The position numbers were made by a program, and so were the translations under genes. Source: an uncultured bacterium (GTDB taxonomy: Bacteria > Bacillota_I > Bacilli_A > Izemoplasmatales > Hujiaoplasmataceae). From it: a stretch of 40,802 nucleotides of DNA. Within the stretch, counting starts at the first letter, position 1. Each line of letters begins with the position of its first letter. The DNA lies in NCBI GenBank assembly GCA_903844055.1, contig CAIMSF010000104.1:1-40802 (forward strand), in the 5' to 3' direction. A model generated the notes under the pieces. The model had not been told where the DNA came from, made no database searches, and saw only the letters and a program-made list of their open reading frames with translations. Shown here one piece after another: positions 20,639 through 40,790 of the stretch.

Positions 20639-20677
20639 AGAAAAAACAGTCGGGACCTTAGTCCAGTTTCGACTGTT
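20639..20677 (-). terminator. terminator overlapping the end of dnaB
   Basis: An outer stem AACAGTCG / CGACTGTT (20645-20677) encloses an inner GGAC-TAAG-GTCC that contains the dnaB stop codon, followed by TTTTCTTTG. Read-through would feed prfA. Confidence 0.72.
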
Positions 20678-22019
20678 CTCTCGCGTAGGCTTCGGCGGAC
20701 GTTTGGCTCATGTTGCTGAAGGTGGACATGTTGCGGTTGAACAGGAGCTGGAAATCGCCGATCGTACCGGAACGGTTCTTGGCGATCGAGATGTCGACGA
20801 CGTTCTTCTTCGTCGACTCTTCCTTCGTATAGTAATCGTCGCGGTACAGGAACATGACGATGTCGGCGTCCTGTTCGATCGATCCGGATTCGCGGAGGTC
20901 GGCCATGACGGGGTGCTTGTCGGGACGGTTTTCGACGTTGCGCGACAGCTGCGAAAGGGCGACGACCGGAACTTTCAACTCACGGGCGACTTCCTTCAGG
21001 ACGCGGCTGATTTCGGAGACTTCCTGGACGCGGTTGCCCTGGTTGGCGTTGGAACCGGAAAGCAATTGCAGGTAGTCGACGACGACGAGGTCGAGCTTGT
21101 CTTCGGCCGAGAGCTTGCGGCACTTGCTTCGCAAGTCGGTGACCTTGACCGTGCCCGAGTCGTCGAAGAAGAAATTGAGGTCGGCGAGCGAGGAGACGGC
21201 GAACTGGAGTTTCTCCCATTCCTGCGTGGTCAGGTTGCCCTGGCGCAGCTTGAAGTTGTCGACCTGCGCCTGGCATGAAAGCAGACGCATGACGAGCTGG
21301 TCGACGCCCATTTCGAGCGAGAAGAAGGCGACGTGCGGATGGCCTTCCTGTTTCGCCACGTTCAGGGCGAGGTTCAGGGCGAACGCGGTCTTGCCCATCG
21401 ACGGACGGGCCGCGATGATGAGCAGGTCGGATTTCTGGAGGCCGAGCGTGTACCGGTTGAACTCGTGATAGCGGGTGTCGAGTCCGGTGACGGTGGATTT
21501 GATCTGGGACTGCTCGGCGATCTTGCCCATCAGGATGTTGGCGACCTCGCCGACGCTCTTGAAGTCGGTGGTGCGCTTTTCCTTCGTGATGTTGATGACG
21601 GTCTGTTCGACGTCATCGATGAAATCGGGAGCGTTGTCGACCGCATAGGACTGCTCGATGATGCCGCGGCAGGCGTCCTGGATCTTCCGGAGGATCGACT
21701 TGTCCTTCACGATGTTGATATAGTTGATCAGGTTGGAGGACGACGGCACGGCTTCGACGAGACCGACCACATATTCCACGCCGCCCGCCTTGGCGAGCAG
21801 GTTCTTGCTTTCGAGGCGGTCTTTCAGGGTCGTGTAGTCGATCGCCACGTGCTCCTGGAAGAGCTCCTTCATCGTCTGGAAGATGACGCGGTGGACCGGC
21901 GAATAGAAGTCGTCGTCGTTCAGTTTGTCCACGATCGCCTTGAGCGACGACTGTTCGAAGAAGACGGATCCGAGGACTGCCTGTTCGGCTTCGATGTTCT
22001 GGGGAATTTTCTGTTCCAT
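20658..22019 (-). CDS. dnaB: replicative DNA helicase
   Basis: 453 aa, typical (called DnaC in B. subtilis). The hexameric 5'-3' helicase unwinds DNA at the fork. N-terminal domain begins PQNIEAEQAVLGSVF; the RecA-like domain has Walker A ARPSMGKTAFALNLA, FSLEM, LVVVDYLQLLSG (Walker B), and SQLSRNVENRPDKHPVMADL followed by the ESGSIEQDADIVMFLYR segment. No intein. It lies 26 bases downstream of the L9 coding region, giving the gdpP-rplI-dnaB order known from Firmicutes. Confidence 0.97.
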   Translation of the reverse strand: MEQKIPQNIEAEQAVLGSVFFEQSSLKAIVDKLNDDDFYSPVHRVIFQTMKELFQEHVAIDYTTLKDRLESKNLLAKAGGVEYVVGLVEAVPSSSNLINYINIVKDKSILRKIQDACRGIIEQSYAVDNAPDFIDDVEQTVINITKEKRTTDFKSVGEVANILMGKIAEQSQIKSTVTGLDTRYHEFNRYTLGLQKSDLLIIAARPSMGKTAFALNLALNVAKQEGHPHVAFFSLEMGVDQLVMRLLSCQAQVDNFKLRQGNLTTQEWEKLQFAVSSLADLNFFFDDSGTVKVTDLRSKCRKLSAEDKLDLVVVDYLQLLSGSNANQGNRVQEVSEISRVLKEVARELKVPVVALSQLSRNVENRPDKHPVMADLRESGSIEQDADIVMFLYRDDYYTKEESTKKNVVDISIAKNRSGTIGDFQLLFNRNMSTFSNMSQTSAEAYAREQSKLD

Positions 22020-22045: not shown

Positions 22046-22492
22046 TTACTTCTCTTCGATGATTTGCAGGCTGATTTCGCCGAGGACGTCCTTGTGCAGG
22101 CGGATCGGGACCTTGTACACCCCGAGGGAGTGGATGTTGTCTTCGAGCATGATCTTGCGCTTGTCGATGTCGAGGTTGTACAGGCGCTTGTATTCTTCCG
22201 CGATCTGCTTCGTGTTGACGGCGCCGAAGAGCTTGCCGGACTCGCCGGCCTTGACGTACAGCTTGATCGGCTTGTCTTCGATCTCGGCCTTCAGTTTCTT
22301 TGCGTTTTCGAATTCGGCCTCGGCTTCGCGTTCGGTTTTGACGCGGGCGTCCTCAAGCGACTTGATGTTTGAGGCGGAGGCTTCGATCGCCTGCTTGGAC
22401 GTCAACAGGTAGTTCCCGTATCCGTTGGCGACCTCGATGACGTCGCCCTTCTTGCCTCTGCCCTTGACGTCCTTGATGAGAATGACCTTCAT
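22046..22492 (-). CDS. rplI: ribosomal protein L9, probably also made alone by internal initiation
   Basis: 148 aa from the internal ATG at 22492, the exact length of ordinary L9. N-terminal RNA-binding domain MKVILIKDVKGRGKKGDVIE, NGYGNYLLTSKQAI, a long helix, and a C-terminal domain. A perfect AAGGAGG at 22501-22507 sits eight bases before this ATG, inside the gdpP frame (encoding IKEEQN). Free L9 therefore can be translated from the same message, while read-through ribosomes make the membrane-bound fusion. How much of each is made is not known from sequence. Confidence 0.85.
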   Translation of the reverse strand: MKVILIKDVKGRGKKGDVIEVANGYGNYLLTSKQAIEASASNIKSLEDARVKTEREAEAEFENAKKLKAEIEDKPIKLYVKAGESGKLFGAVNTKQIAEEYKRLYNLDIDKRKIMLEDNIHSLGVYKVPIRLHKDVLGEISLQIIEEK

Positions 22493-24487
22493 GTTCTGTT
22501 CCTCCTTGATTGACGTCATGAGGATCGATTCGATCTTCGCGACGATTTCGGCGATGTTCCCGCCTTGGATCTGGGTTGCGGCGTTGTTGAGGTGGCCGCC
22601 GCCGCCGAATTGTTCCATGACGACCTGCACGTTGAACTTGTCGATCGAACGGGCGGATACGCCGATCAGGTCGCCGCCGAGATTGCCGATGGCGAACGAG
22701 GCGACGATGTTGTCGATCTCGAGCAGTTCGTCGGCCGTCTTCGCGAGCTGGACGCGGTCGGTCTTGGTCTCGTTGGGCAAAGCCGCGATCGCGTATTGGT
22801 TGGCGATGATCTGCGCCGAGTTGACGAGATTCGACTTGGTCTTGATGTCGTCAAGCGACTCGCGCAGGATCAGCCGGGCCTTGAACGGGTCGGCGCCGGA
22901 GCGCTTGAGCATCGCGGCCGCTTCGAAGGTGCGGACGCCCGTGCGGTAGGTGAAGTTGTTGGTGTCGATCATCATCCCGGCGAGCATGACGGTGGCTTCG
23001 AACGGGTCGATGTCGATGTCGTAGTTGTACAGCTCCAGCAGTTCCGTGACGAGCTCGACGGAAGAGGAGGCGTACGGTTCGACGTAGTTCAGGGCGACCT
23101 CGGCGAGCAGGTTGTCGACGCGGCGGTGATGGTCGATGATGACGATGTTCTTCGTCTTGTCGAACAGCTTCGGTTCCAAGGTCTGGGTCGGGCTGTGGTG
23201 GTCGACGACGATCAAAAGGCTGGTCGGCCCGACCTCGTCGAGCGCATCGCGGACGTCGATGATATACTCGAGCAGCCTGACGTACTCGCGGTTCAGCATG
23301 TTGATGACCTTGGCGCAAGTCTGGTCGATCGCATCGAAATCGAGCACGATACGGGCGTATTTACCCTGCGCGATCGCCATGTGGAGCATGCCGATGGAAG
23401 CGCCGAACGCGTCGATGTCGGTCGATCGGTGCGGGATGATGTAGGTTTTTTCGCTCTTTCCGATCAAGTCGGAGACGACGCGGGAGTTGATCTTCGCGGT
23501 GATCTTGGTGCGTTTCTCGATCGTGTTGGATTTGCCGCCGTAGAACTTGAGCGCCTGGTTCTGCAGGTTGACGACGACTTGGTCGCCGCCTCGTCCGAGC
23601 GCGAGTTTCAGGGCCTCTTCGGCGAGCGCGCCGAGTTGGTCGCGCGGAATGTCATAGCAGGCGATACCGACCGACATCGTGACGCGGACCTCGTTCTGGT
23701 TGGAGAGGTCGCCGATGGTGTCGAGGATCGAGAACTCCTCCTTGATCATGCCGTCGAGTTGCTTGCGGTTCATGAAGATGATCGATTTTTCCGGACGCAG
23801 ATTCAAAAAATACGCGTCGTACTTGCGGCACCAGTTGTCGATCGCGCCGAGATACTTGCCCTGCAGGTTGGTCTTGACCTGAAGGTCGAGATGCGCGGTG
23901 GCCTCGTCGAGATTGTCGAGGTTGATGACGCCGACGGCGTCCTGGTTGTCGCGCAGCCGCTGCTTGATCTCCTCGCGCTCGGTGACTTCGAACATGTAGA
24001 GGCAGTTGTTCTTCGGATAATGGATGAATTCGATTTTCTTGCCGTAGACATCGAGCGAGAACTTGCCCTCGCGCTTCTGGACCATGCTGCTCAGTCCCTC
24101 GTGGACGAATGACAGCTTCCGTTCGACGAGGATGTTCGAGAAGAACTCCTTGGCGGCGGTATTGGCCCAGACGATCGTCTGGTTTTCATCATAGATGACC
24201 ATGCCGACGGGCAGATAGGAGAGGGCGATGTCCTCGCTGTTGCGCAGCCGTTTGGAAAGCAGGTTGGCTTCGCGGACCTTGACTTCGAGGTTTCGGATCA
24301 CTCCGATGTGCTTCTTCCCCTTGGCGAGGCCGACGATGATGTTGATCGCCAGGGCGACGACGAACAGGCCGAACAATCCAAGATAGATCAGATTGTCCAG
24401 GGTCCAGAGATAATAAAAACCGGCGGCGATGCCCGCAATCAGCAGGATGAGCGGCACAACGGATGCGAGAATCGGGTGTTTCTTCAT
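22046..24487 (-). CDS. gdpP: in-frame fusion: c-di-AMP phosphodiesterase GdpP plus ribosomal protein L9
   Basis: 813 codons from the ATG at 24487 with no stop between the two genes. Residues 1-665 are a full GdpP: two membrane spans (about 10-55), a PAS domain (about 88-170), a degenerate GGDEF domain (about 180-320; family landmark GRGGDQVVV), then DHH (HRSTDIDAFGAS at 353, VVDHH at 429, IIDHH at 452) and DHHA1 (FGGGGHLNNAATQ). It hydrolyses c-di-AMP to pApA. Residues 666-813 are a complete L9. The start follows AAGGGGG at nine bases; an ATG ten codons upstream lies before that site. In Firmicutes the two genes are adjacent but separate. Confidence 0.92.
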   Translation of the reverse strand: MKKHPILASVVPLILLIAGIAAGFYYLWTLDNLIYLGLFGLFVVALAINIIVGLAKGKKHIGVIRNLEVKVREANLLSKRLRNSEDIALSYLPVGMVIYDENQTIVWANTAAKEFFSNILVERKLSFVHEGLSSMVQKREGKFSLDVYGKKIEFIHYPKNNCLYMFEVTEREEIKQRLRDNQDAVGVINLDNLDEATAHLDLQVKTNLQGKYLGAIDNWCRKYDAYFLNLRPEKSIIFMNRKQLDGMIKEEFSILDTIGDLSNQNEVRVTMSVGIACYDIPRDQLGALAEEALKLALGRGGDQVVVNLQNQALKFYGGKSNTIEKRTKITAKINSRVVSDLIGKSEKTYIIPHRSTDIDAFGASIGMLHMAIAQGKYARIVLDFDAIDQTCAKVINMLNREYVRLLEYIIDVRDALDEVGPTSLLIVVDHHSPTQTLEPKLFDKTKNIVIIDHHRRVDNLLAEVALNYVEPYASSSVELVTELLELYNYDIDIDPFEATVMLAGMMIDTNNFTYRTGVRTFEAAAMLKRSGADPFKARLILRESLDDIKTKSNLVNSAQIIANQYAIAALPNETKTDRVQLAKTADELLEIDNIVASFAIGNLGGDLIGVSARSIDKFNVQVVMEQFGGGGHLNNAATQIQGGNIAEIVAKIESILMTSIKEEQNMKVILIKDVKGRGKKGDVIEVANGYGNYLLTSKQAIEASASNIKSLEDARVKTEREAEAEFENAKKLKAEIEDKPIKLYVKAGESGKLFGAVNTKQIAEEYKRLYNLDIDKRKIMLEDNIHSLGVYKVPIRLHKDVLGEISLQIIEEK

Positions 24488-24520
24488 CGACCCAGACCCC
24501 CTTTCCAGATAAATCAATTA

Positions 24521-24548
24521 ATTATAACATATTCTGGGCAAAAAACAA
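24521..24548 (-). promoter_or_regulatory. promoter for gdpP-rplI-dnaB
   Basis: -10 TATAAT at 24521-24526 with an extended TG (TGTTATAAT), 16-base spacer and -35 TTGTTT at 24543-24548 on the minus strand. Confidence 0.75.
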
Positions 24549-24565: not shown

Positions 24566-24593
24566 AAAAAAAGACTCTAAAAATAGAGTCTTT
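24566..24593 (-). terminator. terminator after rpsR
   Basis: AAAGACTCTA / TAGAGTCTTT, ten pairs around a four-base loop (24570-24593), followed by four or more T residues on the minus strand. Ends the rpsF-ssb-rpsR operon. Confidence 0.85.
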
Positions 24594-33877: not shown

Positions 33878-33907
33878 AAAAAAAGTCCCGGCATGCATGC
33901 CAAGGAC
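33878..33907 (-). terminator. first T-box terminator
   Basis: GTCC..GGCAT / ATGCC..GGAC with a mismatch in the stem (33885-33907), followed by seven T residues (33878-33884) on the minus strand. Less stable than the second terminator. Confidence 0.82.
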
Positions 33908-34097
33908 GATTGCTCGCGGTACCACCTTGATTCCGGAATACTCCGGCTCTCACGCCGTTAACGCCGGCTGACGTCCGAACCGACCGAGTCGATCCAAAAG
34001 CTCCCGAGCTCGTTCGCGCCGTTCCGTTATCGGGCTTCCATCGTCCCCGACTCGCTAGGAATGAAACACGGCCGCTACTACTCCCGTTCAATGCTTT
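33908..34097 (-). promoter_or_regulatory. T-box riboswitch with Stem I, first antiterminator
   Basis: The T-box core AAGGTGGTACCGCG is at 33915-33928. Stem I has the AGTA/GAA loop-E pair (34076-34079 with the strand near 34006-34017), an AG-bulge AGCGAG (34051-34056), and a distal hairpin TCGGG/CCCGA with GATGGAAG. The specifier lies in GAACGAGCTC; it reads CGA (Arg) or GAG (Glu) depending on register, which I cannot fix. The T-box UGGU pairs with a tRNA having discriminator A. It controls the amino-acid transporter. Confidence 0.88.
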
Positions 34098-34103
34098 GAC
34101 ACA

Positions 34104-40400: not shown

Positions 40401-40477
40401 TGGCGCCCCAACTAGGACTCGAACCTAGGACCCCATGATTAACAGTCATGTGCTCTAACCAACTGAGCTACTGAGGC
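40401..40477 (-). tRNA. tRNA-Asn (anticodon GUU)
   Basis: 77 bases including an encoded CCA. Acceptor GCCTCAG / TTGGGGC, D-arm AGCTCAGTTGGTTAGAGC, anticodon loop CTGTTAA with GTT, T-arm TAGGTTCGAGTCCTA. All arms pair well. It is read from the minus strand, downstream of the rRNA terminator, with its own promoter. Confidence 0.97.
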
Positions 40478-40543
40478 GTTTGAATCGCGATGTCGGGGCT
40501 GGAGCCGCTCGCCGCGGCCGATCAACCGGTGTTTCGCATTTCT

Positions 40544-40571
40544 ATTTTACCGCATTTTTCCATGAATGCAA
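40544..40571 (-). promoter_or_regulatory. promoter for tRNA-Asn
   Basis: -10 TAAAAT at 40544-40549, 16-base spacer, -35 TTGCAT at 40566-40571 on the minus strand. The rest of 40478-40633 holds nothing else I recognise. Confidence 0.55.
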
Positions 40572-40633
40572 CCCCTTTTCGATCGGGTCCGAACGTTTTG
40601 CGAAGATTGCCGCGGCGGGCGCCCGCGAGCACG

Positions 40634-40670
40634 AAAAAACCCCCTTCGGGATCGCTCCCGCGGGGGTTTT
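40634..40670 (-). terminator. terminator of the rRNA operon
   Basis: AAAACCCCC (right arm read on the minus strand) pairs with GGGGGTTTT around an inner CGGGA/TCCCG stem (40636-40670), followed by TTTTTT on the minus strand. Confidence 0.88.
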
Positions 40671-40680
40671 ATGAAGGATT

Positions 40681-40790
40681 GCCTGGCAACGTCCTACTCT
40701 CGCACAAACGTACTACAATCGGCGCTGAAGTGCTTAACTTCCGTGTTCGGTATGGGAACGGGTGTGTCCACTTCGCCATCATCACCAGAC
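40681..40790 (-). rRNA. rrf: 5S ribosomal RNA
   Basis: About 110 bases. 5' GTCTGGTGATGATGGCGAAG and 3' GTTGCCAGGC form the terminal helix; the central CACACCCGTTCCCATACCGA and ACACGGAAGTTAAGC are the conserved loops. It is the last gene of an rRNA operon whose 23S gene must lie just beyond the right edge. The exact ends are approximate by one or two bases. Confidence 0.95.

Follow-up and report, generated by a model that had tools for sequence, protein, structure and literature searches.

GdpP fused to ribosomal protein L9 across the Acholeplasma-phytoplasma-Izemoplasma branch: a probable nested L9 gene and an attached L9 domain that is probably kept for itself

The window (the whole stretch of DNA that was analysed, 40,802 nucleotides from an uncultured bacterium of the Hujiaoplasmataceae) carries the gene order ychF, cinA, rpsF, ssb, rpsR, gdpP-rplI, dnaB and prfA, in which gdpP and rplI share one open reading frame. 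The features of this locus are as follows.

22046..24487 (-): fused gdpP-rplI open reading frame, 813 aa, ATG at 24487 and stop at 22048-22046, by translation
22508..24487 (-): GdpP part, residues 1-660, with two N-terminal hydrophobic helices, PAS, degenerate GGDEF, DHH and DHHA1
22046..22492 (-): ribosomal protein L9, complete, residues 666-813, with its own ATG at 22492-22490
22507-22501 (-): internal Shine-Dalgarno AAGGAGG, 8 bases 5' of the L9 ATG
24496..24506 (-): gdpP ribosome-binding site GGAAAGGGGGT, 8 bases 5' of the ATG at 24487, by direct reading
24521..24529 (-): probable extended -10 promoter TGTTATAAT of the gdpP-rplI unit, by direct reading
24566..24593 (-): probable intrinsic terminator 3' of rpsR, hairpin AAAGACTCTA / TAGAGTCTTT followed by a T run, by direct reading
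20658..22019 (-): replicative DNA helicase gene (dnaB/dnaC), next downstream, with Pfam DnaB and DnaB_C

Translation of 22046-24487 on the reverse strand gave 813 uninterrupted residues, the single stop being the terminal one. Pfam matches, all six of them exceeding their gathering cut-offs, were obtained to PAS_GdpP (residues 83-168), GGDEF_GdpP (188-311), DHH (347-505), DHHA1 (564-656), L9_N (666-711) and L9_C (727-810), while the L9 model TIGR00158 matched residues 666-812, across both L9 domains, (126.9 bits; cut-off 58.6). An earlier, sequence-only reading of this DNA had claimed that GdpP and a complete L9 lie in one frame, and translation, Pfam and TIGR00158 bear this out. The metal-binding residues of the DHH/DHHA1 site (H353, D357, D359, D429, D452, H453, H454 and D508) were invariant across 17 diverse fusions, and by its domains and these residues the GdpP part is a predicted c-di-AMP phosphodiesterase; a diadenylate cyclase gene is encoded in the same genome. 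A search of the window's genome for a second L9 gene found none, leaving the fused copy as the sole L9. The AlphaFold model of the fusion (mean pLDDT 90) placed an intact, normal L9 fold 3 residues past the last DHHA1 helix of GdpP, with lower confidence at the junction, residues 661-670 (pLDDT about 79), and with a pTM of 0.49, at which the orientation of L9 relative to GdpP is uncertain and unreadable from the model.

The terminator-like hairpin 3' of rpsR and the extended -10 before gdpP suggest that gdpP-rplI forms a separate transcription unit. The promoter scan, which needs a better -35, did not report the extended -10 at 24521..24529, and the terminator at 24566..24593 was likewise absent from scan output; near the L9 start the promoter scan reported no same-strand site. 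Elsewhere in the window, a near-consensus promoter with TG before its -10 (TTTACA-17-TATAAT) lies upstream of rpsF at 25760-25732 (-), a T-box leader (Rfam RF00230) lies at 33899-34100 (-), 5' of a gene resembling an amino-acid ABC transporter binding protein, and the end of the window, 40404-40789 (-), holds a 5S rRNA and one tRNA.

A search of relatives for the GdpP-L9 architecture, proposed as a check in the sequence-only reading, recovered the fusion in every genome with a match, 239 of 239, in seven related families (f1, 32 genomes; f2 and f3 together, 26; f7, 13; f18, 26; f22, 53; f12, 84; f16, 5), with a few of these loci cut by contig ends. Carriers include Acholeplasmataceae, Ca. Phytoplasma mali, pruni and sacchari, and Ca. 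Izimaplasma, and a congeneric genome, 95% identical, has the same open junction as the window. The two genes are separate in Haloplasmataceae, Turicibacter, Ca. Bathyoplasma, Bacillus, Paenibacillus, Lactobacillales and Lachnospiraceae, and a single change of state accounts for the fusions on a GdpP tree of 81 rows. By this distribution and this tree, GdpP-L9 is an ancient, single-origin, clade-wide fusion of the Acholeplasma-phytoplasma-Izemoplasma branch, the fused state being not peculiar to the window genome but common to the whole clade. Clade-wide presence together with a single origin rules out both a sequencing error and a recent origin of the fusion. The sequence-only reading had allowed that close relatives might carry a stop at the same point; the junction was open in every related genome with a match, and recent loss of a stop codon was ruled out by conservation across the whole clade. 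Independent fusions in f9, f5 and Lachnospiraceae were also considered and rejected, the long PRK14538 and tblastn matches there being neighbouring separate genes. As separate observations, neither GdpP-L9 nor any L9 was found in two genomes of genus g84, G139 (97% complete, about 10 contigs) and G378, and G463, of the phytoplasma-type genus g137, has two fused copies (C1:328029 and C1:454124) with equal L9 scores, reflecting either a duplication or an assembly repeat.

Counted from the GGGGH motif, the L9 methionine comes after 34-36 residues in nearly all fusions, and the C-terminus of most unfused GdpPs after 33-34. This match in distance supports the earlier claim that the fusion arose when the stop codon of gdpP was lost. 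In some unfused relatives the two genes meet in an ATGA overlap, or the stop stands directly 5' of the L9 ATG, and the L9 Shine-Dalgarno lies inside gdpP; the unfused sample consisted of 80 gdpP-rplI loci from a search favouring in-frame neighbours, and its gap frame statistics were therefore not used. It can be envisaged that one stop codon was lost in a single ancestor of the clade, joining GdpP to L9 with no linker added, and that the L9 Shine-Dalgarno, already within the 3' end of gdpP as in some unfused relatives, stayed in use in-frame. One such loss would be enough to yield the fusion with its internal site already present.

In the window, the internal AAGGAGG reads within Lys-Glu-Glu of the fused frame and has a duplex energy of -10.9 kcal/mol. 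That the internal ribosome-binding site of L9 is intact, as had been claimed, was confirmed by direct reading of this motif and by its conservation in the clade. Among 145 fused junctions extracted, 140 loci have the fused L9 as their only L9, and all 140 keep ATG, GTG or TTG at the L9 start. Shine-Dalgarno duplex energies at these 140 loci ranged from -4.6 to -12.4, with a mean of -9.6, against a mean of -1.2 for a background of 2,412 other in-frame Met codons of the same genes. The core motif falls in differing codon phases among families, from which it follows that the bases are kept and not one conserved peptide. Among additional phytoplasmas, weaker sites also occur (-0.2 to -3.7), with the start codon kept in all. 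A synonymous-recoding null was often not exceeded within single genomes (exceeded at p < 0.05 in 24.8% of loci); this null is weak because the Gly/Glu linker residues by themselves favour GGAG, and we relied for this reason on the in-frame Met background, the diversity of codon phases and the duplication lineages described below. The nested start thus has a start codon and a Shine-Dalgarno that are conserved and stand above background, more weakly so in some phytoplasmas, and free L9 is most likely supplied from it.

The strongest evidence that the internal start is used comes from a natural experiment, offered by lineages with a second L9 gene. A separate L9 was found just downstream of the fused gene in three genomes of genus g84 and in 2 of the 26 matching genomes of g81, the loci being L134 (G311), L135 (G317) and L157 (G377) and, in the other lineage, L108 (G134) and L164 (G395). 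The fused copies beside a free L9 had lost the internal Shine-Dalgarno in 5/5 cases (-1.2 to +0.5), and the three g84 copies had lost the start codon as well; sister genomes with one L9 keep both. On the L9 tree, in which long branches make the placement of the duplicates uncertain, each free copy grouped with the fused copy of its own lineage, which suggests two independent tandem duplications of L9, and the natural experiment comprises just these two events. The dual-output gene proposed in the sequence-only reading is thus well supported by sequence comparison, both by conservation at 140 loci and by loss of the site where a separate L9 exists.

The same five fused copies had also lost G24, Y25 and the aromatic residue at position 28, which are invariant or nearly so elsewhere and which lie in the conserved rRNA-binding face of the L9 N-terminal domain; the free L9 copies in those lineages retain G24 and Y25. 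The reading frame of the attached L9 domain nevertheless remains intact in the five genomes, and its dN/dS was 0.115 (95% CI 0.06-0.19) between G134 and G395 and 0.32 (0.20-0.51) between G317 and G377. The attached domain is under purifying selection even without the internal site or the rRNA-binding residues, which could reflect avoidance of misfolding.

The explanation that we favour, and consider likely, is an old fusion with a nested gene, giving membrane GdpP-L9 plus free L9, in which the attached domain is kept for itself. One mRNA would yield membrane GdpP with a C-terminal L9 domain and, through internal initiation, free L9, which would be the only L9 available for ribosomes. The attached L9 would now be part of GdpP, with a role that is probably structural or regulatory and not that of anchoring ribosomes. 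Internal initiation in vivo, the existence of both products and what the attached domain does are what we infer from comparison of sequences. As the rRNA-binding residues were lost and the domain was kept, its retention, at least in those lineages, is probably not due to ribosome binding, and this suggests that the attached domain serves GdpP itself and not ribosome docking at the membrane. More tentatively, L9 may lead two lives, as a ribosomal protein from the nested start and as a working domain of GdpP that shed its rRNA-binding loop in two lineages, a possibility that we would not yet back. If true, the domain would serve signalling alone in those two lineages, where it might, for instance, control the assembly or stability of GdpP.

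The L9 tail could alternatively be a neutral by-product, tolerated on GdpP while internally initiated L9 is the product that matters, and indeed one stop-codon loss suffices to create it and no special linker has evolved. This is unlikely, however, as not one of the 239 genomes in the seven families has regained a stop codon at the junction, and selection on the tail is purifying even in copies that have no internal start left. The sequence-only reading had proposed instead that full-length GdpP-L9 is built into 50S subunits, holding ribosomes at the membrane and coupling translation to c-di-AMP breakdown. In keeping with this, single-L9 genomes keep a mean of 96% of conserved N-domain columns, the domain folds like L9 in the AlphaFold model and the genome has its diadenylate cyclase; yet the conserved residues must stay in any case because the same codons make free L9, and where a second gene supplies free L9, G24, Y25 and the aromatic residue at 28 have gone from 5/5 tethered copies, which were still maintained. 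The tethering claim is weakened by this outcome in both duplicate lineages, and we regard it as possible but distinctly improbable. It is very unlikely that only the fusion is made and that a protease cut at the junction frees L9, to which the less confidently modelled junction and the poor internal ribosome-binding sites of some phytoplasmas might point, for proteolysis leaves unexplained the start codon and Shine-Dalgarno at 140/140 loci, the varied codon phases and the loss of the site beside a second L9. An assembly or sequencing artefact, such as a missed stop or an indel at the junction of a genome fragmented into 206 contigs, is refuted by the same open junction in independent genomes, including complete single-contig ones and all relatives, and can be practically dismissed.

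The fused architecture places c-di-AMP breakdown and a ribosomal protein on a single transcript and in the same frame throughout Acholeplasma, phytoplasmas and Izemoplasma, and labelling the locus only as L9 or only as GdpP overlooks one of its two likely products. In the lineages with an extra L9, the requirement for free L9 can be told apart from that for the attached domain, which makes the role of the L9 tail on GdpP directly testable.

The sequence-only reading had left as a question whether such fusions are already recorded. They are, both clade-wide and in NCBIfam, where NF011110 / PRK14538, 'putative bifunctional signaling protein/50S ribosomal protein L9', names the GdpP-L9 architecture; literature searches for a GdpP-L9 fusion found no relevant paper, and the architecture is thus in the database, yet undescribed in print as far as we found. 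The window protein has the same domain order and matches positions 57-837 of the 838 in the profile (E 3.7e-197), but its 657.2 bits fall under the curated cut-off of 707, which places it by score outside the curated equivalog. Despite this sub-cut-off score, the GdpP tree puts it inside the same single-origin fusion clade. Other members of f1-f3, f7 and f18 likewise score below 707, and proteins of Ca. Phytoplasma mali and Acholeplasmataceae score far over it; the NF011110 cut-off thus misses the window's order together with f7 and f18, all with the same architecture. The PRK14538 model is silent on the internal start and its fate.

Compared with GdpP of other Bacillota, a c-di-AMP phosphodiesterase, the window protein shares the PAS, degenerate GGDEF, DHH and DHHA1 domains and the metal-binding residues, and PDB relatives of this part are 9n0l and 5xsi. 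Co-expression of gdpP with the L9 gene that lies downstream of it is reported for Streptococcus pyogenes (PMC3711813). The difference lies at the C-terminus, where unfused GdpP mostly stops and the window protein continues into L9. Compared with bacterial bL9, the L9 part matches TIGR00158 and PDB 1div over its full length; unlike ordinary bL9, however, it has its coding sequence only at the 3' end of another gene, and free L9 would therefore have to come from internal initiation. Fusions of enzymes with ribosomal proteins exist elsewhere, an example being IspH/LytB-S1 in clostridia, which like GdpP-L9 links an enzyme in frame to a ribosomal protein. GdpP-L9 differs from it in that the enzyme is a membrane signalling protein, and in that the ribosomal protein would also be available through a nested start.
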